Position numbers and translations under genes: made by a program
Notes under the pieces: generated by a model
What the model was told of the DNA's origin: nothing
Seen by the model: only the letters and a program-made list of their open reading frames with translations
Database searches by the model: none
Shown here: positions 2-20,109 of the stretch, in pieces
Numbering within the stretch: the first letter of the stretch is position 1
Layout of the letters: each line of letters starts with the position of its first letter
IMG/VR virus record: IMGVR_UViG_3300046011_003527
Span: 1 to 21,081 of that record
DNA from: a virus
Strand: one strand, 5' to 3'
DNA: 21,081 nucleotides

Positions 2-622
2 AGTGCTAATACTAACCCAGCGGTGCGTAGCACATACTTCTTAGCCAATACTATCCATACTCCGTTGTATGCAAGACTGACAAACTTTATGACAGCACCA
101 AACGTCTACACCGAAGCTAGTGATCCGGGTGTGGCGGGAACCAAAGAAGCAACTATCCGTGTTGGTGTATTAAGATGGACAGCAAATAATTACAGCACAG
201 GTTATCTACCAGTAGGACCAGATCGTTCAAGTGATGGCGGTAGTTATCAATACTTTACCATGGGCTTCCAACGCACAGGTATTTCAAACTTTAACTTACA
301 TCTCGTAGCACCCGCTGGTGTTGCTGGAGTATGGGTAGCGGCTCCGGGCACAACTATTGACTCGACTAGTGGTCTTAACGGTTGGTTAACAGCCACGACT
401 AGCTATGCTGGTAGTGGTGTACCGGGAAGTAATACAGGTGCCGGCGGTAATGGCAGTGACGGATGTGGCAGCGGAGCATTGATCGCAGCCAACGTAGCCC
501 TAAGTGGAACATTTACGATGACCTTAGGTACAGTTAGCATGTCATCAGCAACTAACAACGTTGCATTAATTAGAATTGCTCTAGCTAGTGGACAAACAGT
601 TTCCACATTGGCGGTGTCATAA
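2..622 (+). CDS. C-terminal part of a virion structural / fibre-like protein (5' truncated by window edge)
   Basis: The reading frame is open to the first base, so this is the last 206 residues of a longer protein. A GTG at position 23 could be mistaken for a start but has no ribosome-binding site and the frame continues upstream. The protein is rich in Gly, Ser, Thr and Ala and looks beta-structured. A segment with GLNGWL..., GSGVPGSN and a Gly-rich turn with one Cys, followed by a strand-rich end with NNVALIRIALASGQTVS, resembles the C-terminal domain of large structural proteins in T4-like cyanophages (from memory). Its TAA overlaps the ATG of the next gene (TAATG), so the two are probably translationally coupled. 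The role in the particle (fibre, baseplate or capsid decoration) cannot be decided. Confidence 0.7.
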   Translation, partial: SANTNPAVRSTYFLANTIHTPLYARLTNFMTAPNVYTEASDPGVAGTKEATIRVGVLRWTANNYSTGYLPVGPDRSSDGGSYQYFTMGFQRTGISNFNLHLVAPAGVAGVWVAAPGTTIDSTSGLNGWLTATTSYAGSGVPGSNTGAGGNGSDGCGSGALIAANVALSGTFTMTLGTVSMSSATNNVALIRIALASGQTVSTLAVS

Positions 623-3318
623 TGCCTATACAAAGCGCATCAGATAATCAAAAAGTAGACTACCTTTGGAAGAAGATAGTCTATGGTGCTGCTAAGACTG
701 ATATATCTGGCAACATCGACGCGACCAATGAACCTAATCCAAGTCCACTGTTAATACGTGGCGATAAGATCTTACAACAATCAGATCTGATCGCTAATAT
801 TATTCCTAGCAGTAACAGTAGTGTTGTAACAGTTTATCCAACTACACTCCCTGTAGAATGTACTAGCACAGCAGGAATTCCGACACCAACATTAACTTGG
901 CAAACAGGACAGACATTTTGGATCCCACCAGAGTTTGGATCAACATATCAGATCAAAGTTTATATCAGTCCAAGCGGACAGGCAGGCAACGTATTAACCA
1001 AAGGCACACAGGTATTTGCCACAGGCAGTGGTAATAACGATCTATGGGTATTTGACTACCAGGCAGGTATCCTAAACTTTAACAGCAACAATACACCTTA
1101 CAATGCCAGCAACCAACCTATCAGCTTTACTGGCAACAGCGTTTACATCAGTGGTGCTGTTTATTCTGGTGCATTTGGTTTACCTAGTACAGGTAATATT
1201 GGTAATCTGCTTTTAGGTAATATTACATTTAGTGGTAATACTATTTCTTCTAGTGAAGCAAATGGTAACATAATGATCAGTGCCCCCGGCACAGGTATAG
1301 TTCAATTTGTTGGACAAGATGCTATTGGTATACCAGCAGGTAATGATAGTACCAGACCATCAGATCCATATGTTGGTTATTTAAGATTTAATACTGATAG
1401 ATCTGATATTGAGTACTGGAATGGTACTATATGGTCTACCCCAGCTGCCGGAGTAATATCATCAGATACTATTAATCCTGATGGTGTGGCTAATACATTT
1501 GCCCTAAGTTCTAACAGTAGTACCTTAGGTGTTATGGTTAGTATCAACGGTACCCTACAACAACCAACCACAGCCTATACAATAATTAATAACAATCAAA
1601 TTCAGTTTACTGAAATTCCGTTAACCACAGATACTATTGAAGTTCGACGTATCGTGCCTGGTACACAAACTGTGTCAGCTGAATCGTTAACTCTTGGTAC
1701 AACAGCAGTCATATTAGATACAGCCAACGTTAACATTACAGGTAACGTATTACCCAGTGCCAATGTAACATATAGTTTAGGCAGTGAAACGCTACAGTGG
1801 AAAGATCTATGGGTCAGTGGTAATAGTATCTATATTGGTGGATCTGAACTAACAGTTGCCAATGGACAATTATCGATTGGTGGTAACACAGTTGGTGCCG
1901 CAGATCCATATGGTAATATAAATGTCAAAGCCTATACTGAGTCAATGGGCTTTGCTAATTACAGCAATGTCAACGTTGCAGCCTATACAACTACGCAATC
2001 ATATACTAACTATAGTAACGTAAATTTATCAGCGTATTTAGGCGGTAGCTTCTCCGTTGGAACAATCACTGCTGGTAGTTGGAATGGTGGAACCATTGGA
2101 GTTGCTTATGGTGGCACAGGCGGAACAACACCCACAGAAGCACTGACTAGTTTATTACCAAGTGGAGCAAGCACAGGATATGTATTAACCACAGGTGGTA
2201 GCGGCAGTTACTATTGGGCTAGCGCAGGCGGTGGAGGAGGTGCTACAGTTGGGCAAACGATTAATACTCTTCGACAATCAAATACAGCCACACAAGGACA
2301 GACAGTATTTACACTAACAGGCGGCATTACCTATACTCCAGGTACAGGACAGCTAGGTGTTTACATTAATGGTGTCCGCCAATTTCCCTCAGAGTATACA
2401 GAAACAGCCAGCAATGTCTTTACACTAACCGCAGGTATTAATGCTGGTGATATTGTGTTTGCTGAAATCAATCAGTCTCAGTCATTTAATAACTACGCTA
2501 ATTTAACCTATGCAAGTAACGTTGGTAATATTGCCGCCAGCGGACTAACAGTCCAGTCCGCGATTGAAAGTTTAGAAAATAATAAAGCACCACTAGCAAG
2601 TCCAGTGTTTAGTGGAGTAACAACTGTTGGTGGCAATTTAGTAGTCCAAGGTAACTTATTTGTCAATGGTAACCTAACAACTATTAACGCTAATAATTTG
2701 ACCATCAGTGACAGCATGATCTATCTAGCTGATGATAATCCAGCTGATACCCTAGACATTGGTATTGTAAGTGCATTTACTGATGCTGTCCGTTATCAAC
2801 ACACCGGGTTCGTGCGTGATGCTACAGATGGCACATGGAAACTATTTGCCAACGTAGTACCAGAGCCAACTTCAACAATTGATTTTACCAATGCCAATTA
2901 CAGCAATCTACGCCTTGGTAATTTAACAGCCATCGATGGATCATTCACAGGAAATATCTCAGCCACAGTATCTGGATTCTCAATTGGCTACAGAGATTTA
3001 CCACAGGTCACTGCTGGCAATGTTACTCTAGCATTAACAGATGCTAGCAAACATTTTTACGCTAACACCACAGCTCCATCAATCATCACTGTGCCTAGCA
3101 ATGCCAACGTAGCATTTCCGATTGGCACTACTATAGTGATAGTAAACAGAGGTAGTGGTAACATAACCATACAAAATCAAGGCGCAGGTGCGCCATTCCT
3201 GTATCTCTCTGGCAACGCTACTACTACCACTTCAAGAACTCTAACACAGTATGGTATGGCGACCTTGGTTAAAACAGAAACCAACTTATGGTTCGTTAAC
3301 GGTACTGGAGTAGTATAA
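622..3318 (+). CDS. Large phage tail-fibre-like structural protein (898 aa)
   Basis: A modular fibre protein. Residues about 1-170 form an N-terminal region that probably docks to the particle. Residues 246-272 match the common phage-fibre pattern of short strands around RFNTD and IEYWNGTIW. Residues 280-344 and 545-617 are two copies of a module centred on ING(T/V).Q, which also occurs near residue 1000 of the fibre gene at 7279. Residues 494-535 (GVAYGGTG, then GYVLTTGG) form a motif often seen near fibre shafts. Residues 650-750 are a shaft-type module beginning NKAPLASPVFSG. The final ~105 residues, from YRDLPQ to the end, resemble a C-terminal domain recurrent in phage structural proteins. 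It overlaps both neighbours by one base. The target receptor is unknown. Confidence 0.8.
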   Translation: MPIQSASDNQKVDYLWKKIVYGAAKTDISGNIDATNEPNPSPLLIRGDKILQQSDLIANIIPSSNSSVVTVYPTTLPVECTSTAGIPTPTLTWQTGQTFWIPPEFGSTYQIKVYISPSGQAGNVLTKGTQVFATGSGNNDLWVFDYQAGILNFNSNNTPYNASNQPISFTGNSVYISGAVYSGAFGLPSTGNIGNLLLGNITFSGNTISSSEANGNIMISAPGTGIVQFVGQDAIGIPAGNDSTRPSDPYVGYLRFNTDRSDIEYWNGTIWSTPAAGVISSDTINPDGVANTFALSSNSSTLGVMVSINGTLQQPTTAYTIINNNQIQFTEIPLTTDTIEVRRIVPGTQTVSAESLTLGTTAVILDTANVNITGNVLPSANVTYSLGSETLQWKDLWVSGNSIYIGGSELTVANGQLSIGGNTVGAADPYGNINVKAYTESMGFANYSNVNVAAYTTTQSYTNYSNVNLSAYLGGSFSVGTITAGSWNGGTIGVAYGGTGGTTPTEALTSLLPSGASTGYVLTTGGSGSYYWASAGGGGGATVGQTINTLRQSNTATQGQTVFTLTGGITYTPGTGQLGVYINGVRQFPSEYTETASNVFTLTAGINAGDIVFAEINQSQSFNNYANLTYASNVGNIAASGLTVQSAIESLENNKAPLASPVFSGVTTVGGNLVVQGNLFVNGNLTTINANNLTISDSMIYLADDNPADTLDIGIVSAFTDAVRYQHTGFVRDATDGTWKLFANVVPEPTSTIDFTNANYSNLRLGNLTAIDGSFTGNISATVSGFSIGYRDLPQVTAGNVTLALTDASKHFYANTTAPSIITVPSNANVAFPIGTTIVIVNRGSGNITIQNQGAGAPFLYLSGNATTTTSRTLTQYGMATLVKTETNLWFVNGTGVV

Positions 3319-4301
3319 TGACTGGCGTGACAGCGATGGTAGCTGCTGGTGCGATCAACAGACTTTTTAGTGTTCGAGTGACTGTAAGTCAAACATATTC
3401 AGCCAACACAACACAGACAACCTCAAATGTATCTGCCTTATCAGGATATGTAGCAGGTAGTACTGACATAATCATAACTGTAAATAGTGGAATATATGTA
3501 TATTCTACGTCCACAGCTACTCCGGCATTAACTATCTCTGGTGCTACAGCAGGTGACAGGGTATACCTAGTTAATAATGGATTCATCATGGGCAAGGGTG
3601 GTGATGCCGGATCAAATGGGGGTCCCGCTCTAAGTCTAGCAACTCCCACATTTATTACAAATAACAGTTACATAGCCGGCGGTGGCGGAGGTGGAGCCAG
3701 TATAACCACTGGAAGTCAACCGGCCGGGGGCGGTGGAGGTGCTGGGGGAGGAGCTGGTGGATCTACTAGCACGGCTGCAGGTGGAGCAGGTGGAGCCATA
3801 GGCCAATCAGGATCTAATGGAGCTCGCGTTGCAGGATTTGGAGCTAATTATAATGGTATAGGTGGTGGCGGTGGAGGTGGTAGAATACTTCCAGGAAATG
3901 GTGGTAGAGGAGCTTTTGGCGCGTACTTTGAAGGCCTAGCCAGCACCCTAGATATATGTATTATAAATTATGCAGGTTTAGGTGGTGAAGCTGGTGGGGG
4001 TGGAGGTAAATTTAGTGGATTTGGAATTTCCCCGTTTTTCCAAACTGCCGTACAATCTGTTACTGGTGGTGGTGGTGGGTGGGGAGCTGCTGGCGGCCTG
4101 GCCCTTACAGGAACTTATGCAATTACCGATGTAGTAAATTCTGGAGCAGGAGGTAGTGCAAGTGCAGCTGGGTTTAATGCCTTTAATCAAGCCACTAACG
4201 GAACCACAGGAACACAAGGATCAGGCGGTAAAGCCATAAACCTAAATGGTTATTCAGTTACCTATATTACACAAGGATCAATTTTTGGAGCTGTATCATA
4301 A
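3318..4301 (+). CDS. Polyglycine-rich tail-fibre adhesin, paralogue 1 (327 aa)
   Basis: After a beta-type N-terminal region (about residues 20-90, ending NNGFIMGKGG) the protein becomes a Gly-rich domain with many GGGGG and GGAGG runs up to about residue 300. It ends in a conserved strand segment, GGKAINLNGYSVTYIT, and a terminal FGAVS. This pattern is that of gp38-like distal adhesins of T-even phages such as S16, whose glycine runs pack as polyglycine II helices and present variable loops to the host receptor (established for S16). Assignment here is by pattern only. Unlike the paralogue at 5940 it has no ~60-residue attachment domain, so it probably rides on another fibre protein. A GGAG sits eight bases before the ATG, inside the end of the preceding gene. 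Confidence 0.75.
   Translation: MTGVTAMVAAGAINRLFSVRVTVSQTYSANTTQTTSNVSALSGYVAGSTDIIITVNSGIYVYSTSTATPALTISGATAGDRVYLVNNGFIMGKGGDAGSNGGPALSLATPTFITNNSYIAGGGGGGASITTGSQPAGGGGGAGGGAGGSTSTAAGGAGGAIGQSGSNGARVAGFGANYNGIGGGGGGGRILPGNGGRGAFGAYFEGLASTLDICIINYAGLGGEAGGGGGKFSGFGISPFFQTAVQSVTGGGGGWGAAGGLALTGTYAITDVVNSGAGGSASAAGFNAFNQATNGTTGTQGSGGKAINLNGYSVTYITQGSIFGAVS
3873..3904 (+). repeat. 32-bp exact direct repeat, copy 1 (with 4838-4869)
   Basis: A 32-base stretch encoding GGGRILPGNGG inside adhesin 1 is identical at the DNA level to 4838-4869 in adhesin 2, while flanking codons differ. It could be a recombination tract between paralogues or strong local constraint. Confidence 0.8.
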
Positions 4302-5236
4302 TGACCGCATTTAATCTAACAGTTTCGGCTAATACACAAAATTTTAATCTGAATACTGCACTGGTTGCTGCAGGATGGAACGGTACTGATGTAGTGGAAG
4401 CAACCATCACTGTTAATGCTGGCATTTATGTTTGGTCAGATTCTACTGCAAGTGCAGGCATGAACATTACCACGTTACCAGCAAACTCAACTGTATCTCT
4501 CATCAACAATGGTTTCATCATGGGCAAGGGTGGCGCCGGTGGAGCAGCACCTGGTGGATTTTCCGCTACTGCAACAGCTGATGGTCAACCAGGCGGTCCT
4601 GCTATATCTTTGGCAACCAATATTATATTAACAAATAACAGTTATATTGCTGGAGGGGGCGGTGGAGGTGCTGCTGGGGATTATGACGGCGGTGGCGGTG
4701 GAGCTGGTGGTGGAGCTGGTGGCACAGGAAAATTTGGCTCAAACACTCCCATTGCCGGAGGTGCTGGAGGTGCAATAGGGGTAGCCGGATCAAATGGTAT
4801 TAGTGCAAATTATACTTATACTGTTAGTTCAGGTGGCGGAGGTGGTAGAATACTTCCAGGAAATGGTGGCAGTGCCGTCCTTGGTCAATACGTTAGTCAA
4901 AATGGCATAGGCAAGGGCGGAGGAGCCGGTGGCGGAGGCGGAGCGTCGGCATGGAATGGAGTCGGAGACAACCCTGGATTCAGCGCGTACGGGGGGAATG
5001 GGGGTGCAAGAAATTCACCAGCAAATTTTATGGGTGCTTATGGAAGTAGTGATTTTCCAGATTTGAAACAATCATGCGGTGGTGGTGGCTGGGGAGCAAA
5101 CGGAGGAACAAATTTTAGTTATGCTAATCCCAAAAATCCCCATAGAGTTGGCGGAGCTGGTGGTAAAGCCATAGCACTTAATGGATATACTGTTAGATTT
5201 ATTACAACAGGTATTATATATGGAGCGGTTAGCTAA
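4301..5236 (+). CDS. Polyglycine-rich tail-fibre adhesin, paralogue 2 (311 aa)
   Basis: Same architecture as the gene at 3318. A short beta N-terminus (TVSANTQNFNL..., about residues 6-70) leads to NNGFIMGKGGAGG. A polyglycine domain with GGGGG and GGAGG runs follows (about 75-285). The conserved end is GGAGGKAIALNGYTVRFIT with terminal YGAVS. It lacks the attachment domain seen at 5940. The Gly-rich loops differ strongly from paralogue 1 apart from GGGRILPGNGG, which fits diversification of receptor-contact loops on a fixed scaffold (inference). It starts on a TAATG overlap and ends on another, followed directly by the 61-residue partner gene. Function as a distal receptor-binding tip is inferred from resemblance to gp38-like adhesins. 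Confidence 0.75.
   Translation: MTAFNLTVSANTQNFNLNTALVAAGWNGTDVVEATITVNAGIYVWSDSTASAGMNITTLPANSTVSLINNGFIMGKGGAGGAAPGGFSATATADGQPGGPAISLATNIILTNNSYIAGGGGGGAAGDYDGGGGGAGGGAGGTGKFGSNTPIAGGAGGAIGVAGSNGISANYTYTVSSGGGGGRILPGNGGSAVLGQYVSQNGIGKGGGAGGGGGASAWNGVGDNPGFSAYGGNGGARNSPANFMGAYGSSDFPDLKQSCGGGGWGANGGTNFSYANPKNPHRVGGAGGKAIALNGYTVRFITTGIIYGAVS
4838..4869 (+). repeat. 32-bp exact direct repeat, copy 2 (with 3873-3904)
   Basis: Partner of the repeat in adhesin 1. The third adhesin has the corresponding protein motif (GGRILPGTGG) but diverged codons. Confidence 0.8.
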
Positions 5237-5421
5237 TGAATACGCAATATGTGATTTATGATCAAGCTACAGGCTTGCCAGAGTATTATGATACATTAGA
5301 ACTCGCACGGGCCAGACAGCAAGAATTCCTAGAATTATACCCACATTTTGCAACAGATTTATTTGATATCACTGTTTGGCAAACCAATGATGACGGTACC
5401 ATAACGCAATATAAACAGTAA
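5236..5421 (+). CDS. Small adhesin-partner protein, copy 1 (61 aa, unknown)
   Basis: I do not recognise this family. The protein is acidic and aromatic-rich: it begins MNTQYVIYDQATGLPEYYDT, has a probable helix (LELARARQQEFLELY), and ends ITVWQTNDDGTITQYKQ. A second copy at 6959 has the same length, with roughly three quarters of residues identical by eye. Both copies sit immediately downstream of a polyglycine adhesin with overlapping stop and start codons (TAATG here). The constant pairing suggests a role tied to the adhesin, for example folding, capping or attachment. In T-even phages small assembly proteins accompany fibre tips, but no homology to them is visible. The Shine-Dalgarno GGAG lies within the adhesin's last codons. 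Confidence 0.7.
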   Translation: MNTQYVIYDQATGLPEYYDTLELARARQQEFLELYPHFATDLFDITVWQTNDDGTITQYKQ

Positions 5422-5424
5422 ATA
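5417..5424 (+). promoter_or_regulatory. Possible T4-type late promoter element (AGTAAATA)
   Basis: AGTAAATA differs from the TATAAATA late consensus at two positions and overlaps the stop codon of the 61-aa gene. It is followed by ACACTATAACAG, the same sequence that follows the gp13 late promoter, which strengthens the call. Initiation would fall near 5430, fifteen bases before the ATG at 5445. Confidence 0.45.
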
Positions 5425-5435
5425 CACTATAACAG
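5419..5435 (+). repeat. 17-bp sequence shared by two late-promoter regions (with 17767-17783)
   Basis: TAAATACACTATAACAG occurs identically here and at 17767-17783, spanning the last part of the -10 element and the predicted initiation region. The hairpin 5' arm present at 17749 is absent here. Confidence 0.7.
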
Positions 5436-5444
5436 AGACCAGCA

Positions 5445-5930
5445 ATGACAACACAGGTAAATTCAACAGTATTAGGCACATTAGGTAACTTGACGGTCAC
5501 CAACGATGTTAGGATCGGTGGCAATACACTGTTCACCAATGGTGCTTATAAAACATTAGCAGTTGGTGGTAGTAGCAGTGGCGGCGGATGGCTACAATTT
5601 TTATGGAACGGCAATGCCGGACCTTATATCTATAATGGTAATCAAAATTTAATATTATGGACTGATGGTGGCACACCTAAAATCACGTTAAATAATGCTG
5701 TTAACAAAAGCGTAGAAATCGTCAGCGCCAATGTTGACATCGTGTCGAGCAATGTTCGTGTGTCGGGCAATTTAACCGTCACTGGTAATGTGACATTCTC
5801 AGGATGGAGTATCCGTGAAACCGGTACTAAACTTTACTTTGCCTACAACGGTGTTAATAAAATGAGCGTAGACACGGGTGGTAATCTAGTGGTAACCGGT
5901 GATGTAACTGGTTTTGGTACTATAACCTAG
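5445..5930 (+). CDS. Small fibre-like structural protein (161 aa)
   Basis: A short beta-rich protein made of fibre-shaft modules: an N-terminal STVLGTLGNLTVTNDVRIGG segment, a middle region with WLQFLWNG and LILWTDGG, and a C-terminal shaft of alternating hydrophobic and Asn/Ser/Thr residues (VRVSGNLTVTGNVTFSG). It ends with a KLYFAYNGVNKMSVDTGGNL motif often found at the end of phage fibre proteins. It resembles pieces of the 898- and 1195-residue fibres. Its place between two adhesin cassettes suggests it is a short fibre or an adaptor for an adhesin (inference). Its own late-promoter-like element lies just upstream. It stops ten bases before the next gene. Confidence 0.65.
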   Translation: MTTQVNSTVLGTLGNLTVTNDVRIGGNTLFTNGAYKTLAVGGSSSGGGWLQFLWNGNAGPYIYNGNQNLILWTDGGTPKITLNNAVNKSVEIVSANVDIVSSNVRVSGNLTVTGNVTFSGWSIRETGTKLYFAYNGVNKMSVDTGGNLVVTGDVTGFGTIT

Positions 5931-5939
5931 GAGTAACTC

Positions 5940-6959
5940 ATGGCAGTACCTAGTTCCGGCATTCTTAAAATATCTAACATAGCCTCAGAATTCCAAGACA
6001 CTGTTCCATATCGACTCAGCAAGTATTATCGTGGTGGAGCATTGGTGCCCAACAGTAGCCAAAATGCTAACGTACCAACCAGCGGCGCAATTAAGTTAGG
6101 CAACTTCTACGGCGCAGTTCGACGTGTTGCACTTACACAAACATTTGCAACCAATACCACCCAGACAACCTTGAATGTTTCTGCACTAGCTGGATACGTG
6201 GCAGGGATCACTGACGTAACAATAACCGTAAATAATGGAGTTTATCTATACTCAACATCAACTGCTAATCCAGCTTTGACTATAACTGGAGCCGCAGCTG
6301 GTGATACGGTAACGTTAATTAACAATGGTTTCATTATTGGCATGGGGGGAAATCCCAATGTAGGTAGCCGCAGCGGAACCCAAGCTGGTGGACCAGCTAT
6401 GAGTCTAGGTTATAACATAAGTCTCACTAATAATAGCTACATAGCAGGCGGTGGTGGCTCGGGCGGTGGACAGGGATTTGGTGGTGGTGCAGTAAGCAAT
6501 AACTTTGGCGGTGGCGGTGGCGCAGGAGGCGGTCCCGGTGGTGGCCCAAGTGGCGGCGCGGGTGGTGGTCCTGGTAGTTCGGGTAGTAATGGTGGATCAT
6601 CTAACTATGGCGGGTGGACCGCATATGGCGGTGGCGGTGGCGGCCGTATTTTACCAGGAACCGGTGGAGGATCAAAATCGGGTGGCGGCGGGGCTGGTGG
6701 TGGCGCCGGTGGTGGTCCTAATGTAAATGGCGGTGGCGGTGGTAGTGCTAATAATGCAGGATCCAACGGCAATGGTGGTTCCAGCACATCAAACTATGGG
6801 TCTAGTGGTGGCGGTGGGGGCTGGGGAGCTGCTGGAGGAAATTATATTAACTCTCTTAGCGGAACTTATTTTGGTGGAGCAGGTGGTAAAGCCATCAACT
6901 TAAATGGATTTACTATAACTTATGTTGTAACAGGAACAGTTTATGGAGCGGTTAGCTGA
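5940..6959 (+). CDS. Polyglycine-rich adhesin with N-terminal attachment domain, paralogue 3 (339 aa)
   Basis: Residues 1-60 (MAVPSSGILKISNIASEF..., VPTSGAIKLGNFYGA) form a small N-terminal domain that recurs in many phage tail and fibre proteins and is thought to mediate attachment. From residue 63 the protein follows adhesin 1 closely: TQTFATNTTQTTLNVSALAG, then NNGFIIGMGG, a polyglycine domain (about 135-312) with several GGGGGG runs, and the conserved GGAGGKAINLNGFTITYVV...YGAVS end. It is thus a fusion of attachment domain and gp38-like adhesin, and the only one of the three that looks able to dock by itself. The start is supported by TAGGAG nine bases upstream. The stop overlaps the next start as TGATG. 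Confidence 0.75.
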   Translation: MAVPSSGILKISNIASEFQDTVPYRLSKYYRGGALVPNSSQNANVPTSGAIKLGNFYGAVRRVALTQTFATNTTQTTLNVSALAGYVAGITDVTITVNNGVYLYSTSTANPALTITGAAAGDTVTLINNGFIIGMGGNPNVGSRSGTQAGGPAMSLGYNISLTNNSYIAGGGGSGGGQGFGGGAVSNNFGGGGGAGGGPGGGPSGGAGGGPGSSGSNGGSSNYGGWTAYGGGGGGRILPGTGGGSKSGGGGAGGGAGGGPNVNGGGGGSANNAGSNGNGGSSTSNYGSSGGGGGWGAAGGNYINSLSGTYFGGAGGKAINLNGFTITYVVTGTVYGAVS

Positions 6960-7144
6960 TGCAAACGCAATACGTAATTTATAATCAGGCCACGGGTTTA
7001 CCTGAGTATTATGACACAGTAGAACTTGCTCGGGCTCGTCAAACAGAATTTATTGCACTGTATCCAACTTTTGATACTGATCTATTTGCCATAACCGTCT
7101 GGCAAACCAATGATGACGGAACGATAACCCAATATAAACAGTAA
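6959..7144 (+). CDS. Small adhesin-partner protein, copy 2 (61 aa, unknown)
   Basis: A paralogue of the 61-residue protein at 5236: YVIY.QATGLPEYYDT, ELARARQ.EF and the tail VWQTNDDGTITQYKQ are identical, with scattered substitutions elsewhere. It starts on the TGATG overlap with adhesin 3. The shared 16-base run TATGGAGCGGTTAGCT at the end of both preceding adhesins, and an 18-base identity running across both stop codons, show that adhesin plus partner is a duplicated unit. Function unknown. A dedicated chaperone or structural cap for the polyglycine adhesin is the simplest guess. Confidence 0.7.
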   Translation: MQTQYVIYNQATGLPEYYDTVELARARQTEFIALYPTFDTDLFAITVWQTNDDGTITQYKQ

Positions 7145-7181
7145 ATATCAACCGGTATCGATCAAAATTTCTCCAATCTCG

Positions 7182-7189
7182 TATAAATA
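7182..7189 (+). promoter_or_regulatory. T4-type late promoter (TATAAATA) for the 1195-aa fibre
   Basis: An exact match to the late -10 element recognised by the T4 gp55-class sigma factor, in an intergenic gap and upstream of a late structural gene. Initiation is expected near 7195, leaving an 84-base leader, unusually long compared with the other late promoters here. Confidence 0.8.
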
Positions 7190-7278: not shown

Positions 7279-10200
7279 ATGTCAGCATTGACTAGAATTC
7301 TTAACAATCAGATCTTTAGCAAAACCATCATTGCTAGCCAAAAGATCGCAGATGGAACCATCACAGGTAGTCTATTTTCCAGTAACGTAACAGTACCAGG
7401 TGACTTCTTAATCACTGGTAACTTGTTTGTCCTAGGTTCTAGTGCTTATACTACTATTGCGTCAACTAACACCTACGTCAATGATCCCCTGATCACGCTT
7501 AACAATGGTTTTGCTGGTAGTAATACCTACGATGAAGGGTTGATATTTAACCGTGGTACATCACAAAACCGTGCGCTAATCTGGAGCGAGTTTAATCAAG
7601 AGTTCCGCTTAATCGGTACTACAGAAACTGGTACTACCTATGGTAACGTAGCAGTCAGCAACTTTGCAAATATCCATGTTGGTAATCTAATATCTGACTA
7701 CAACGCCAACGTTGGTTCTTTAACCAGCGCAGGCGGTATCAACGGTGTAAATGCAATTTTATCAGGTGACCTAGCTGTTGACGGTGGTGATATTACCACT
7801 GCACAGTCAATGGGTAATGTATTCAACGCTAATGCAACCAGTATCAGTGCATTTGGTGCTGCGACCGGCATCTTACTAGGTGCTACGAGCGGAACATTGT
7901 TAGTTAACAATCCAACTATAGTTGGTAGCCAAACAACACAAAACATATTCAACGCCAATGCCACAACTGTAAATGCATTTGGTGCAGCTACAGCGATAAC
8001 TGTTGGTGCTAACAGCGGATTTACAGCAATACAAAATGGTAACATCTGGGTGCCAAATGCAACATCAATCGATGGAGCACAAACAACAGTAGCATTATTA
8101 AACACTAACGCAACTACTATCAATGCATTTGGCGCAGCCACAACACTTAATCTAGGTGCAAGCTCAGGCATAGCAACAGTTAACAATACAACAGTTTACT
8201 TACCGACTGCTACTAATATCGCAGTGGGTGGCGCTAGCTTAACATTTGCTAATACGGTAGTAGCGACAGTTAACGCATTTGGTTCAGCAACATCAACATT
8301 CTTAGGCGCGACTGGCGGTATTGTTACTGCTAGAGATGCATTGGCAGCTACTGGTACATTCTGGGCTAATTCAAGTGCTTCTACTACAACACAAGGTACA
8401 GGCGCGGTTATAGTTCCAAATGGTGGTATTAGCGTATCAGGTGCGGCTAACATTGCTAGCACACTAACAGTTGGTGGTGCTACACAATTAAACAGCACAT
8501 TAGGTGTTGGTGGTATCACAACATTCACTAACTCAACTAATGCAACAACTATTACCGATGGTGCTGTGATAATCCAAGGTGGCGCTAGCGTTCTAAAAGA
8601 TTTGTATATTGGTGGTAATTTATATGCGGCCAACATCGTTGGTATCACAGCCAACGTCATCACAGTTGAAGATCCGTTGCTATTCTTAAAACCAAGTTAT
8701 ACATTCCCATACAACTATGACATTGGTATTTACTCATCATTCCAAGGCGCTGGATTAACCACTGCTGGGAATATTCTCCAACACACTGGTGTAGTCCGTC
8801 ATCAAGAAACTAACACTTGGACCTTTGCAAGTAATCTTGCTGAACCAGGTGGCGGCCATGTAGTATTTGATAACAACACAGTTTATGATCCAATCAAAGC
8901 TGGTAACTTAGAATTAACAGTTACAACAGACAGTACAAGTGCATCCACTGGTGCGTTAATCGTAGCTGGTGGTGCTGGTATTGGTGGTAATATATTCCAC
9001 ACAGGCACACGTTTAGACACATCAGCAAGCAACTACTTATTTGCTTCAACACCAACAACAGTTGATGCATTTAAATCTGCGACTGATATTGAAATCGGTG
9101 CTACTACTGGTACTGTTGTGATTAACAATCCAACGGTAGTTGGTAGCCAAGTAACACAGGCATTATACGATACAATAACACAAACGTTAAACTTTGCTCG
9201 TTCATCTAATGTTACTATGGGCCATACAGATGGCACAACAACTTTACAAGGTAATGCTAACGTTCGTGCAGTTACACAGTCAACATCATTTACTAATGGC
9301 GCATTAGTAGTAGCTGGTGGTCTTGGTGTTGCAAGCAATTTAAATATCAAAGGCGGTAGTTATCTAACATTAGGTAAAGACCTAGCCGGTGGCGTGGTTT
9401 ATCCAGAAGACGCAGTACAAGTCACGGCAAATGCCAATTCAGCAAGTAGAATATCAATACAAAATCTTAGCAGTGATCAATCAGCTACTACAGAATTTAT
9501 AGCGATGGCTGACAATGGATCTAATGAAGACAATTATATTACTGTTGGTATAACCAGCAGTACATATAATTCAGCAGCACTTGCTCCTATTTTACAGCCA
9601 GGCGATGGCTACACACGTTCTATTAGTAATTTAGTATTGATTGCCGGTGATGATGTTGTTATTGCAGCAAATGGAAGAAGCCAAGTTGGTGTTAGGATTA
9701 GTGCTAGCAATTCAAACGTTGGCGTACAATATTCTACAGAATCTACAACAGAAAAAACTGGCGCATTCACAGTTGTTGGTGGTGTGGGTATTGGCAAAGA
9801 TTTGTATGTAGGCAAAGGTGCTACACTTAATAGTTTAAGAAGCACTAATCCAGTCCAAGTCCTTAGTTCGACATCAGGCAATGTGGCGATATTTGCCAAC
9901 GTAGCCACAACCTTAGCACAATCAACAGAATACGTAGTTATTGGTGGCGGTAATACAGTAGTACAACCAGGTGTAACATTAAAAGTTGGCAGTATTACAA
10001 GTATGATAATACCAACTGGTCCTACAGCTGGTAGACCAAGTAGCTTGTTTGGTGGTCCAGAATATGACGTACAAGGTATGTTCCGTTACAATACAACCAT
10101 TAACAACATTGAGTTCTTTGATGGTACTAACTGGCAGTCTTCAGGTTCGACATTTACAGTTATCAGTGACAGACAGTTCAGTGGTAACGTAGCAGGCGGC

Positions 10201-10876: not shown

Positions 10877-11617
10877 ATGCTCCAACTAGCTAGGAAATAT
10901 AGAAGAAATTACACAGGCGAAGATATTATTGTTGAGCGCAAGCATGAAGGGCAGAAATGGTGGGACGTTACTGAAACTATCCCCAACATGGTCACTAATA
11001 ACCAAATATCAAATCGAGCTGTGGTTATTGGTAACGGCCCCGGCCGTTTACCGTTTAATCTTAACAATCTAAAAACCCCACAAGGTCTATTAGGTGCTAC
11101 AACTGTACAGACCTACGGTTGCAATGCTTTATATAGAGATTTTACTCCTGACTTTCTGGTAGCCACAGGCAACAGCGGTATCATACCTGAAATTGCCGAT
11201 AGTGCTTATGTAAATAATAATATTGTTTATACTAATGCAATTCATTTGCTAGAGCATCCTAGTAAGTTTTATTTAATCCCTCATGATCCTTATGCAGATG
11301 CGGGCACAGTAGCGGCTTATATCGCTGCATTCGATGGCCATACGAGGATTTACCTAATAGGATTCGATGGCTACGATTTAGAAGGGCATAACAGTAATAT
11401 CTATGCAGATACCAATGGCTATGACCCAAAATGGTCTGTTGAAATCAATGGCGATAAATTTATCAACAATAGAGCACAGCTATTTAACACATATACTGAT
11501 GTTGATTTTGTGTGGGTTACTCAACATGGTAAAAGTACAGTACCAGAAAAATTAAAATGGTGCAATAATCATAGACAAATTAGTTTTCGTGATTTAGTCT
11601 TAGAGTGTGATCTATAA
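10877..11617 (+). CDS. Rossmann-type protein resembling MptE/DUF115 or GT42-like enzymes (246 aa)
   Basis: The motif VVIGNGPG (residues 49-56) begins a nucleotide-binding-type beta-loop-helix, followed by YGCNALYRDFTPDFLVA (80-96), ADAGTVAAYIAA (141-151) and RIYLIGFDGYD (157-167). This order (GNGP, CN.(L/F)Y, a small-residue helix, then IYL.G.D) is seen in MptE-like/DUF115 proteins and also recalls Campylobacter GT42 sialyltransferases. Which activity applies cannot be told from sequence alone. It lies ten bases after the giant fibre gene in the same orientation and so is probably made late. A sugar-transfer or surface-modifying role on fibres is possible but inferred. Its last six bases overlap the convergent Nudix gene. 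GGTAAAAT precedes the ATG. Confidence 0.55.
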   Translation: MLQLARKYRRNYTGEDIIVERKHEGQKWWDVTETIPNMVTNNQISNRAVVIGNGPGRLPFNLNNLKTPQGLLGATTVQTYGCNALYRDFTPDFLVATGNSGIIPEIADSAYVNNNIVYTNAIHLLEHPSKFYLIPHDPYADAGTVAAYIAAFDGHTRIYLIGFDGYDLEGHNSNIYADTNGYDPKWSVEINGDKFINNRAQLFNTYTDVDFVWVTQHGKSTVPEKLKWCNNHRQISFRDLVLECDL

Positions 11618-12040
11618 AACTGTTTCTAAAGTCTTAATTTTTTCCATAACAGCAGTAAAATTAATAGTGCGCCAAACTCCGGGATGTAGGGGTTTTGGAT
11701 GATCTTCTAGGCTCACCCATGAGTATCCACGGTGTTCATAGTTCAATATGGGAACGAATTCTTCTTCTACAGGTATGAGAAAAGTATGATAGGCAAAATA
11801 TCCGTTATCGCTGGTAAATTTTTCTATAGGAATGACTTTGACATCCTGGAATTCATACCCAAGTTCTTCTTTTAATTCACGGGTCAAAGAATCAAGTATC
11901 TGTTCATTGGCATCGATCTTGCCACCAGCTAATCCCCAGGTGCCTGCATACTTGGTGCTGTTGCGCAGTAGGAATAGATAACGGTGAGTTGATATTGAGT
12001 AGATGAAAGTGCCTACACCTTCTATATGACTAGGGTCCAT
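11612..12040 (-). CDS. Nudix hydrolase (142 aa)
   Basis: A complete Nudix box is present at residues 40-62: G, five residues, E46, seven residues, R54-E55, then E58-E59 and G61-Y62, which is GX5EX7REUXEEXGU with an aromatic last position. These glutamates bind the metal that hydrolyses a nucleoside diphosphate linked to X. Upstream GTWGLAGG and downstream YSWVSLED are also typical. The frame could start at 12094, but the ATG at 12040 is preferred: the fold begins just after it, an AGGA precedes it, and it shortens the overlap with gp15 to 19 bases. It is last in the minus-strand gp14-gp15 unit and so probably co-transcribed late. The substrate (oxidised nucleotide, NADH, ADP-ribose or capped RNA) is unknown. 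Confidence 0.9.
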   Translation of the reverse strand: MDPSHIEGVGTFIYSISTHRYLFLLRNSTKYAGTWGLAGGKIDANEQILDSLTRELKEELGYEFQDVKVIPIEKFTSDNGYFAYHTFLIPVEEEFVPILNYEHRGYSWVSLEDHPKPLHPGVWRTINFTAVMEKIKTLETVL

Positions 12041-13434
12041 AGTCCTGCTTTGTATTCGCCCTCGTAGCTTTTTACCCATTGAGATTGATTCCACTTGTAT
12101 TGAGTTCCAGTATTGAGATTACTTACATATTGTAGTGTCGTATCAGTACGGCTGTCAAATGATATGTCCCAATGAATCCCATTGTACTGTATGATATCAT
12201 TGGCATGTGCTACCAATTGTTGTCCATCGCTACCAGTCCAAATTGGAGCACCGTATCCAGGAGCATTGTCGAAACTTCCGATATCATCCAAGATCAGATA
12301 ACGTGTGCCGTTAACTGCTGATTGAGCTAATGATACAGCGGAATCTTTGCGAGGATCAACGATGGCATCGATCGGTGATAAGGTATTAGAGGGTTTGGTA
12401 TCTATGTCAACATTAAAAATCAATAGGCTGTCATCAGTTGGATGATAGCTGACCGTGCCAATGACTTCATTAAGGCCATCTTCCTGTAGCAGCCGGACCT
12501 GGCTGACGCCATTCTGCAGCTCACCATAGACACTAATTAAACTACGCCATATGTCCTTAGTGCCGACTTTGGTTGGAGTTTCTAATGTTGGTGGATCTCT
12601 TGGGTCAGCAATCTCACTGATCTTGAGCAAGGTCAGCTGATTACCGATCAGCAATACTCCATACATCAGCGGAGTGAAATACTGTCGACGACCTAGTAGA
12701 TTATCTTCACTCATAGCATCGGCACTGAGATTGCCATCGCTATCGTGTATGTTGGCGATGATCTTCTGTATGACTCCCAGCTTTTTGATCTTAGCTGGTG
12801 GACTGATCCACACAGGCAATTTAAATGTCAAGGTAGCCACATCGATGGGATTTTCAGTACCAATTGGCACAGTACGGCTGGTCCACGTTGGACTTTCGAG
12901 ATAGACCACACTTAGGCTGGTCCAGTCGATATAATTGTCGGTTGATTGTATTTCCAATGCTGGATTAAATAGCACCATCAGTTGTTCTAGTAGCTGTAGT
13001 TTTTGTTTGGTATTTGATGTCCAGATATCCAATTTTAGATCTATGGTATAGGGCACAGGCATAAGGCGTTCGATGCTGAAGGCATTACCTTGACGATTCT
13101 CGTACTCCATGGTGTCTTCATTGTAATAGCGTTCTCTGATCTGCATCTTGCCAATAAAAGCTGGATCCTGTACGCGATCGCGATCATAGGTAATGTTGTT
13201 GATCCAAGCAGCCATGGCCGGCACCGTGGGTAACATATTACCAGCGGTATTTTGGCTGAGTATGGCCTGCACCTGGCGACTGCTGTCACCATAGTAAACA
13301 GGCACACGCTGTAAGGTAGTATTACCTTCTCGATCCTGTCCAAACTCTACTTGGAATCCTGATACCATGCGTATGAACTGTGCTAGGAAACGCTCTATTT
13401 GAGCATCATAAAAAAATTGCTGATTAGCTGCCAT
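12022..13434 (-). CDS. 15: gp15-like tail sheath stabiliser / tail completion protein (470 aa)
   Basis: In T4, gp15 caps the contractile tail and joins it to the neck. Residues 1-213 follow the T4 gp15 pattern: FFYDAQIERFLAQFIRMVSGFQV, RVPVYYGD (43-50), LPTVPAMAAWINNITYDRDR (68-87), PVPYTIDLKLDIWTSN with LEQLMVLFNPALEIQ (126-163), and VATLTFKLPVWISPP (199-213). T4 gp15 is about 272 residues. Here an extra C-terminal region of about 200 residues is present, with short strands such as RYLILDDIG and IIQYNGIHWDISFD resembling small modules of the window's other structural proteins. It lies two bases after gp14 on the minus strand and overlaps the Nudix start. Confidence 0.85.
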   Translation of the reverse strand: MAANQQFFYDAQIERFLAQFIRMVSGFQVEFGQDREGNTTLQRVPVYYGDSSRQVQAILSQNTAGNMLPTVPAMAAWINNITYDRDRVQDPAFIGKMQIRERYYNEDTMEYENRQGNAFSIERLMPVPYTIDLKLDIWTSNTKQKLQLLEQLMVLFNPALEIQSTDNYIDWTSLSVVYLESPTWTSRTVPIGTENPIDVATLTFKLPVWISPPAKIKKLGVIQKIIANIHDSDGNLSADAMSEDNLLGRRQYFTPLMYGVLLIGNQLTLLKISEIADPRDPPTLETPTKVGTKDIWRSLISVYGELQNGVSQVRLLQEDGLNEVIGTVSYHPTDDSLLIFNVDIDTKPSNTLSPIDAIVDPRKDSAVSLAQSAVNGTRYLILDDIGSFDNAPGYGAPIWTGSDGQQLVAHANDIIQYNGIHWDISFDSRTDTTLQYVSNLNTGTQYKWNQSQWVKSYEGEYKAGLWTLVI

Positions 13435-13436
13435 CG

Positions 13437-15095
13437 TTAATTATCCGCTGAAGGACGCAGAGCTTGGCTCAAGCTCTGGCGTTCATTGATTACATTTCTG
13501 TAAATTGTATATTCTAATACACTGCCAATTGGCAATGGGCTCGCATCTGCTATGGTAGCACTTGATACTACACCAGTTAAGTTACCAGCTAGGGTATAAC
13601 TCGCACTTGATGCATTGGCTGCAGTCACGATGTAACTGCCATTGAAGGCAGTACTACCAGTTACACCTGCTATCAAGATATCTTGACCTACTACGAACGG
13701 TGTCGTTGGTTGGCTAGCGAATCGTACGGTAGCATTACCACCTGTGGCCGTAGCAGATGTTATCCTTAGTTTTCTTGGATACAGTGGACCAGTGATAGTA
13801 ACAGCTATATTACCACTGCTGTTAGATATGGTATTAGTGATAGGTAATCCGTCTAGACGAGTTCTGGCACCATACTTGTTATTATATGCGACTTTGGTAA
13901 CCACTGTCTTGGTAGAAAGTGTAAATGATAAGGTTGCGGCATTGGCCGGTGGAACGTATGAACTTGAAATACGTATAGCGTCCCAGGCGGCACTATTACT
14001 CATAAACTGGTTAGTATCATTAATGAATCCACTTAGTTGCGTTTGATTTTCTGTGCCTGGTGTTAGGTTAGTTCTCACAGCATCCTCTACTTTGACCCAA
14101 CGACGTCCATCATATCGGAACAGTCTATTAGGAATATAATCTAAACGTAGGAAGTAATCGCCTTGACCAGGAGTCACAGGGAATGCGATACCTGCAGCCA
14201 CTGTGGCACCGTTTGGTGGTAGTGCATCACCTGTTAGATATCCTTCAACTTTAACCGCACTGGTTAATGTTTGTGCGCTGGCATCAGCAATGTTTGAGCT
14301 AGCATCTGGATTCATGTCACTAGCGTCAAGAGCGCCAGGATCTACCGGATAGCCATGTTCATTTAATACTTCAGTATAGATAGTGGTAGTATCATATCCG
14401 CTCTTAGGTACATCTTGTTCTGCACGTGTAACAATAGCATCGTTGATTTCAATATATTTGTTGTAAGTACTGATAACTTCGCCGAGCGTATTATCGCTGT
14501 CACCACTGTCTGTGGCTGGTAAATTATCAAGTATGTCCTTGTATTCTTGGCTGTCTACCAACGGTTGTAGTTTAACACGCCATAGATGTGGCCACCAAGT
14601 CTGTGCGAATCCTTCCGCAGCACGGCTAGCATCATTAACCACATAGAACCGTTTGAGTGCAGCGCCGATACCTTCATCCAACGGATAGTAGTCTATTAGA
14701 TTTGGTAGTTCTAGTACATCACCTACCATGAGTTTGCGACCTATAATGTCGATCATGTCATCATAGTGGAATACAGCAAACATGGTATCACCAGTTAGGA
14801 ACAAGCCAAACTGTGTTAGATCGAAGTCATTGTCATTGATGCGATAGATAGTGCGGATAGTATAAACGCTGGTATCATATTTGCGATCACGATTTTCGAG
14901 GAATAACAAATCCTGTATGCCCATGATTCCAGTGGCACCCGTTTCTGTGGCGCTGGCATTGGTCTGTGCCAATGGACCTAAATATTTGTGGACGTAAACA
15001 TCAACACCACCCACGGTGAACATTTCACTCATTGTCTTGTTGATGAATTTATCGTCATTACCTTTGGTGGGCTTGTAAAGTGATAATCTTGGCAT
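13437..15095 (-). CDS. 14: gp14-like neck protein (552 aa)
   Basis: The first ~180 residues carry the gp14 signature: an MPRLSLYKP start, a long strand region, FGLFLTGDTMFAVFHYDDM (96-114), then GDVLELPNL (125-133), and FYVVNDASRAAEGFAQTWWP...WRVKLQPL (150-179). T4 gp14 is about 256 residues, so this version has some 300 extra. The extra part includes YFLRLDYIPNRLFRYDGRRWV (314-334) and, at about 445-518, a beta module with FNGSYIVTAAN that is also present inside gp13. gp14 and gp13 form the collar between portal and tail. The gene is first in a minus-strand unit read from 15116, with AGGATTAGGTA directly before its ATG. Confidence 0.8.
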   Translation of the reverse strand: MPRLSLYKPTKGNDDKFINKTMSEMFTVGGVDVYVHKYLGPLAQTNASATETGATGIMGIQDLLFLENRDRKYDTSVYTIRTIYRINDNDFDLTQFGLFLTGDTMFAVFHYDDMIDIIGRKLMVGDVLELPNLIDYYPLDEGIGAALKRFYVVNDASRAAEGFAQTWWPHLWRVKLQPLVDSQEYKDILDNLPATDSGDSDNTLGEVISTYNKYIEINDAIVTRAEQDVPKSGYDTTTIYTEVLNEHGYPVDPGALDASDMNPDASSNIADASAQTLTSAVKVEGYLTGDALPPNGATVAAGIAFPVTPGQGDYFLRLDYIPNRLFRYDGRRWVKVEDAVRTNLTPGTENQTQLSGFINDTNQFMSNSAAWDAIRISSSYVPPANAATLSFTLSTKTVVTKVAYNNKYGARTRLDGLPITNTISNSSGNIAVTITGPLYPRKLRITSATATGGNATVRFASQPTTPFVVGQDILIAGVTGSTAFNGSYIVTAANASSASYTLAGNLTGVVSSATIADASPLPIGSVLEYTIYRNVINERQSLSQALRPSADN

Positions 15096-20101: not shown

Positions 20102-20109
20102 TATAAATA
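20102..20109 (+). promoter_or_regulatory. T4-type late promoter (TATAAATA) for gp18
   Basis: Exact consensus in the gap before the sheath gene. Initiation is expected near 20115. AGAGGA at 20128-20133 is the ribosome-binding site, nine bases before the ATG. Confidence 0.85.

Follow-up and report, generated by a model that had tools for sequence, protein, structure and literature searches.

Here, we describe a tail-fibre cluster in the virus record IMGVR_UViG_3300046011_003527 of IMG/VR, analysed over all of its 21,081 bases (hereafter the window; the record is complete, although the genome from which it comes may be larger). Five open reading frames (ORFs) sit inside this cluster: three glycine-rich paralogues, which we call adhesins 1, 2, and 3, and two proteins of 61 amino acids (aa). 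Our preferred reading, to which we assign a probability of roughly 0.68, is that of a modular receptor-recognition locus, in which two fibres would each have a matching gp38-type tip, accompanied by adhesin 2, which has no dock.

In the proposed arrangement, the long fibre (898 aa, 622-3318, on the plus strand like all genes of the adhesin locus) would carry adhesin 1 through a short hydrophobic plug, its type A C-terminus (...LWFVNGTGVV) acting as the socket. The short fibre (161 aa, 5445-5930) would carry adhesin 3 through a three-part dock, with its type B C-terminus (FSGWSIRETGTKLYFAYNGVNK...GDVTGFGTIT) as the socket. The tips would have a polyglycine-II core bearing hypervariable loops, and the receptors that they contact on the bacterial surface would differ. 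Adhesin 2 would most likely be a spare specificity that recombination could move onto a dock, or else be mounted some other way, and the 61-aa proteins would go with the adhesin body, most likely helping it to fold or assemble. We infer from these data that the adhesins are present in virions, and likewise their binding to receptors, their simultaneous use in one virion, and the roles of adhesin 2 and of the partner proteins.

Three gp38-like adhesin bodies

The initial annotation described an array of three paralogous gp38-like adhesins with two linked 61-residue partner genes, and all five ORFs are found where it placed them. Adhesin 1 (327 aa, 3318-4301) consists of the plug MTGVTAMVAAGAIN, a beta scaffold, Gly-rich loops, and a C-terminal end; adhesin 2 (311 aa, 4301-5236) is an intact gp38-like body without an N-terminal dock; and adhesin 3 (339 aa, 5940-6959) begins with a dock of ~62 residues (MAVPSSGILKISNI...SGAIKLGNFYGA), which is followed by a gp38-like body. 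The adhesins are not simply consecutive, because adhesins 2 and 3 are separated by the 161-aa fibre ORF; the "in a row" of the initial annotation needs correcting to this extent. A similar refinement applies to the shared N-terminal scaffold. Its motif is kept (NNGFIMGKGG in adhesins 1 and 2, NNGFIIGMGG in adhesin 3), whereas the extreme N-termini differ, being a 28-aa plug, none, and a dock of ~62 aa, respectively. The common C-terminal motif is found in all three, as GGKAINLNGYSVTYITQGSIFGAVS, GGKAIALNGYTVRFITTGIIYGAVS, and GGKAINLNGFTITYVVTGTVYGAVS in order. Judged by sequence, the picture of three equal adhesins is thus wrong in detail: two appear to fit different fibre mounts, and one is mount-less.

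Glycine makes up 26-29% of each adhesin. In a family alignment of 62 members, drawn from the window and viral contigs, adhesins 1, 2, and 3 each retain 49 of the 50 columns that are conserved at ≥90% among 59 relatives. Conserved Gly motifs alternating with at least five hypervariable segments are a family-wide trait; by column entropies over the 62 members, these segments fall at 141-150, 181-190, 221-230, 281-290, and 301-310 in the numbering of adhesin 3.

The structure prediction suggested in the initial annotation, with S16 gp38 as the reference, was run for adhesin 3 and returned a gp38-like fold. The AlphaFold2 model has a predicted local distance difference test (pLDDT) score of 86.5 and a predicted template modelling score of 0.84, and a Foldseek comparison with the PDB matched it to gp38 of PP01 (9v85, E 1.2e-8) and of S16 (6f45_D, E 1.8e-6), the only entries at E≤0.001 being gp38 proteins. 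On structural re-comparison, the model gave a Z score of 20.7 to 9v85 and to 6f45 alike. Adhesin 3 is therefore predicted to have the gp38 fold, a beta-helix and a polyglycine-II sandwich with distal loops, and the 52-60% identity of adhesins 1 and 2 suggests a gp38-like fold for these as well. The family profile likewise ranks the PP01 and S16 gp38 structures first by sequence, and 30 of the 62 members match Pfam GP38 at E≤0.1 (best E 7e-11). Fold, profile, and the Pfam hits of relatives together back the gp38-like identity first proposed.

Some searches were less informative. With adhesin 1 as the phmmer query against the PDB, only low-complexity matches were returned; with a whole adhesin as the tblastn query, no match was found in cultured phages, which is probably due to masking of the Gly-rich part, and the N-terminal part as query did give matches. 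A scan of bacterial genomes with the whole alignment confirmed nothing, and a second scan gave five loci only, all from metagenome-assembled genomes. Gly-rich adhesin-like proteins on such contigs, with Oligoflexia BroJett040 among the sources (L097 5791-6888, L100 2229-3266, and L101 5845-7485), have N-termini resembling Tat/Sec signal peptides, and may be secreted proteins of cellular origin that include a gp38-like domain.

Docks, fibre ends, and the exchange of tips

Adhesins 1 and 3 are each encoded directly 3' of a fibre gene; adhesin 2 comes after adhesin 1. Ahead of the scaffold there are 28 residues in adhesin 1, which form the short hydrophobic plug, 70 in adhesin 3, and 9 in adhesin 2, against at least 21 in all 59 other family members. 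As the dock is absent, we claim adhesin 2 as a gp38-like body only. The dock of adhesin 3 is matched by phrog_30374 and appears as three short helices in a low-confidence region of the model.

To relate docks to fibres, three classes of upstream fibre end were distinguished: that of the 898-aa fibre (A), that of the 161-aa fibre (B), and an S74-like end, which by its sequence looks like the S74 intramolecular chaperone. Among loci selected by adhesin, a type A end was followed by a short dock in 9/9 cases and a type B or S74 end by a long dock in 27/27, an agreement of 36/36 classified cases. Because this first set had been chosen by adhesin, a second sample was picked by fibre end alone; here, long docks were seen behind 0/36 type A ends and 15/23 type B ends, and three of the eight type B loci without a called long dock show a similar but divergent one. 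A Mantel test of dock against fibre end gave r 0.32 and was not dock-specific (scaffold 0.30), and the class test was used in its place. The type A end of the 898-aa fibre in the window recurs in loci L002-L004 and in those selected by fibre end. The tips that follow class A fibres are very unlike one another, some being gp38-like adhesins and some other Gly-rich proteins, with a tip of 200 aa in L147 and one of 701 aa in L149; they are preceded by a short hydrophobic plug of one kind.

The long docks contain up to three pseudo-repeats, with 1.9 motifs per dock compared with 0.5 in shuffled sequences. The arrangement is reminiscent of S16 gp38, in which three tryptophan-bearing helices cap the trimeric gp37 fibre (PMC6851490); there are three helices in S16 and up to three pseudo-repeats here. 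In locus L048, the dock (7899-8060) repeats almost the same unit three times, each time with a single Trp (KDGGVWK, KDGGTWK, and KDAGTWK), and might act as a three-fold plug on a trimeric fibre. Given the S16 parallel and the matching of fibre ends to docks, the plug and dock stretches probably attach the tip physically to the fibre.

The comparison of the locus across related phages, also raised at the outset, indicates that docks and loops are exchanged independently and that tandem arrays recur. Locus L003 has the layout of the window, except that its first slot holds one adhesin, and its second slot carries a non-Gly tip of 266 aa on the same long dock. In locus L001, the long fibre of the window ends in class B, and the adhesin has a long dock to match. 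Between the L001 and L003 adhesins, loops are 78% identical and docks 25%; between adhesin 3 and that of L001, docks are 90% identical and loops 55%, with same-codon identity dropping from about 0.74 to 0.38; and between adhesin 1 and that of L003, docks are 68% identical and loops 48%. By these contrasts, mounts and receptor loops are exchanged separately among related phages.

Tandem adhesins are found in 9 of 63 non-redundant loci with the window counted in, and three adhesins per locus in the window and L070 only. Could the three adhesins instead compete for the tip of a single fibre, resulting in virions with mixed tips (phenotypic mosaics)? The pattern in L070, where identity is 97-100% between docks and only about 30% at non-Gly loop positions, is as expected of such tips, and L070 with its three adhesins, L066, and L013 all have tandem adhesins with docks 73-100% identical and different loops. 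For the window, however, we consider this improbable: here, adhesin 1 has plug A, adhesin 3 has dock B, and adhesin 2 has neither, and the run of adhesins is interrupted by a second fibre ORF.

Cultured examples exist in the Agrobacterium/Rhizobium phages OLIVR6, OLIVR5, and IG49, each with two tandem long-dock Gly-rich adhesins, the frames of which are partly un-annotated in the corresponding records. In OLIVR5 (L095 4001-5099), the first tandem adhesin is split and frame shifted, in a stretch 32 bases shorter than that of OLIVR6 (L096 4001-5131), and the second is intact, which indicates that the loss of one adhesin is tolerated. This bears on adhesin 2, which might be a silent or decaying duplicate that is never mounted, a functionless left-over of recombination, or an adhesin whose dock was lost by assembly error. 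The missing dock, the single contig, and the tolerated disruption in OLIVR5 speak for such an origin, although adhesin 2 has an open frame of 311 codons with 49/50 family-conserved residues kept, its start is coupled to the preceding stop (TAATG), and a partner gene comes immediately 3'. On balance, we regard it as rather unlikely and prefer a spare or otherwise mounted specificity.

The initial annotation also raised a multi-receptor or switchable device. Multi-receptor use of the window adhesins is plausible, because scaffolds are kept, loops differ (~25-29% identity at non-Gly positions), and similar arrays recur. The switch is not supported. In its favour, the paralogues have conserved ends and variable centres, as might be wanted by an inversion or a diversity-generating retroelement that selects the adhesin in use; yet all genes of the locus lie on one strand, and the inverted repeats found were weak and imperfect, none convincing and none bracketing the adhesins. 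Neither a recombinase nor a reverse transcriptase was found among the ORFs scanned, bearing in mind that the record may be a fragment and that a recombinase gene could lie outside these 21 kb. The invertible tail-fibre switches of Mu, P1, and phiCh1, in contrast, have inverted repeats around alternative fibre ends and a site-specific recombinase. We therefore think a genetic switch very improbable.

It is important to weigh what counts against the two-fibre reading. The fold model covers adhesin 3 alone, and its dock region has a pLDDT of 49-74. Adhesins 2 and 3 score 15.8 bits against Pfam GP38, for which the gathering cut-off is 25, and adhesin 1 has no match; the proteins are named "gp38-like" for this reason, and the shortfall is a score limit rather than a biological feature. 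The p-values of the docking rule (about 1e-8) come from kindred sequences that are not independent, and so they overstate the case and are indicative only. Finally, the missing dock of adhesin 2 is known from one assembled contig.

The 61-residue partners and the gene neighbourhood

The two 61-aa proteins (5236-5421 and 6959-7144) are members of an unnamed family with apparently one or two domain copies. Their linkage to adhesins, as first claimed, is right and proves general across related loci: a partner lies within 200 nucleotides 3' of the last adhesin in 42/57 clusters, and 47 of 48 members adjoin an adhesin. Copy 1 is predicted to adopt a compact beta-beta-alpha-beta-beta fold (model pLDDT 93.7). 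Searches of Pfam, PHROG, and the PDB gave no match for the family, fold comparison gave none that convinced, and no relative was found in cultured phages. Photosystem I subunit D chains were considered as fold relatives and set aside, since a Z of 5-6, the best obtained, is typical of common arrangements.

Our best guess is that the partner is a folding or assembly helper of the adhesin body. Its variation follows that of the C-end and of the loops (r about 0.33) more closely than that of the dock (0.17). This correlation and the almost constant position beside an adhesin would also suit a structural tip part that stays on the virion and is no folding helper. We consider that alternative less probable than not, since adjacency to the C-end could by itself explain the correlation, and neither fold nor sequence comparison gave a match from which one role could be preferred. 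In L014 (164-412), a partner-family protein is found 2.5 kb from the adhesin, behind a truncated ORF; partners may serve non-Gly tips too.

At the DNA level, an adhesin C-end and its 61-aa gene form one duplicated block (5148-5424 and 6871-7147, both on the plus strand, 77% identical), and adhesins 1 and 3 are alike in their N-terminal scaffold DNA over 219 bp at 74%. Such likeness among adhesin and partner copies is far above chance. The start of adhesin 2 overlaps the stop of adhesin 1 (TAATG), and the 61-aa genes abut adhesins 2 and 3 through TAATG and TGATG junctions. A -1 frameshift fusing adhesins 1 and 2 was considered, and no slippery heptamer was seen by eye.

The virus is, by its gene content, a T4-like myovirus, of which the record may be a piece: it encodes a sheath stabiliser resembling T4 gp15, a tail sheath, a head-tail adaptor, and a dNMP kinase. 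The 898-aa fibre itself has a weak match to the T7 fibre N-domain. A strand-switched block (11612-15095, minus strand) encodes a Nudix hydrolase, the gp15-like sheath stabiliser, and a structural protein, with the Nudix and gp15-like ORFs overlapping by 73 bases. The T4 late-promoter-like motif TATAAATA is found at 7182-7189 and 20102-20109, just 5' of the genes for a 1195-aa structural protein and the tail sheath; two sites in the record are not above the chance count, and promoter and terminator scans of the record were at chance level. There are neither tRNA genes nor Rfam matches in the 21,081 bases. In other loci, PAAR-like spike-tip proteins (MPAxxRxGDxCTGHGC) are encoded among the adhesin genes (L059 7144-7566, L054 596-880, and L017 9600-9884).

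Meaning and comparison with known systems

The locus separates receptor-binding bodies from mounts, and it offers a working rule: the last ~60 fibre residues predict the mount carried by the next tip gene, so that in uncultured phages, too, each tip can be paired with its fibre. If true, the separate swapping of plugs and receptor-binding loops would let phages change the bacteria to which they attach. A further outcome is a widespread family of small proteins, as yet without a name, that is tied to polyglycine adhesins. As cultured Agrobacterium phages with two tandem adhesins, OLIVR5 and OLIVR6 make the multi-adhesin question testable. A broader and more speculative proposal, which we offer as doubtful, is that the group keeps standard sockets and plugs (two types are seen here), stores plug-less receptor-binding bodies, adhesin 2 being one, as donors beside mounted ones, and has a dedicated small partner of the adhesin body, amounting to combinatorial host-range cassettes that homologous recombination would drive.

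Conserved Gly motifs with hypervariable segments are known for the gp38 proteins of T2, S16, and PP01 (PMC12529663, PMC6851490, PMC12892980), and in PP01 it is loops D and E that touch OmpC (PMC12892980). With these proteins (Pfam GP38; 6f45, 9v85), the window adhesins share the predicted fold, Gly-rich core, and hypervariable loops, and adhesins 1 and 3 also a gene right behind the fibre gene and a putative N-terminal attachment part. Those phages usually have one gp38 each, on gp37, whereas the window has three adhesins, two kinds of dock and one dock-less member, two fibre types, and a small partner gene. The Tetart/Krisch model (J Mol Biol 1998), as cited in PMC12529663, describes T-even adhesin swapping at conserved motifs; loop exchange between conserved motifs is shared, whereas here dock and loops move independently, and several possible donors lie adjacent in one genome. 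Ackermannviridae multi-tailspike complexes (PMC8432352) similarly have several receptor-binding proteins and place receptor modules on different carriers, although theirs are tailspikes in a branched complex and those of the window would be polyglycine adhesins on fibre tips. The haloarchaeal Hafunavirus pair (PMC8651126) likewise has a Gly-rich adhesin, which governs host range, followed by a small gene; however, the HF2 adhesin fails the adhesin profile, and the HF2 small ORF, tried as a partner relative, fails the family profile and is unrelated to the 61-aa family. Set beside these systems, the window combines gp38-like adhesins that are in tandem and modularly mounted, one of them lacking a dock, with a partner family that has no name.

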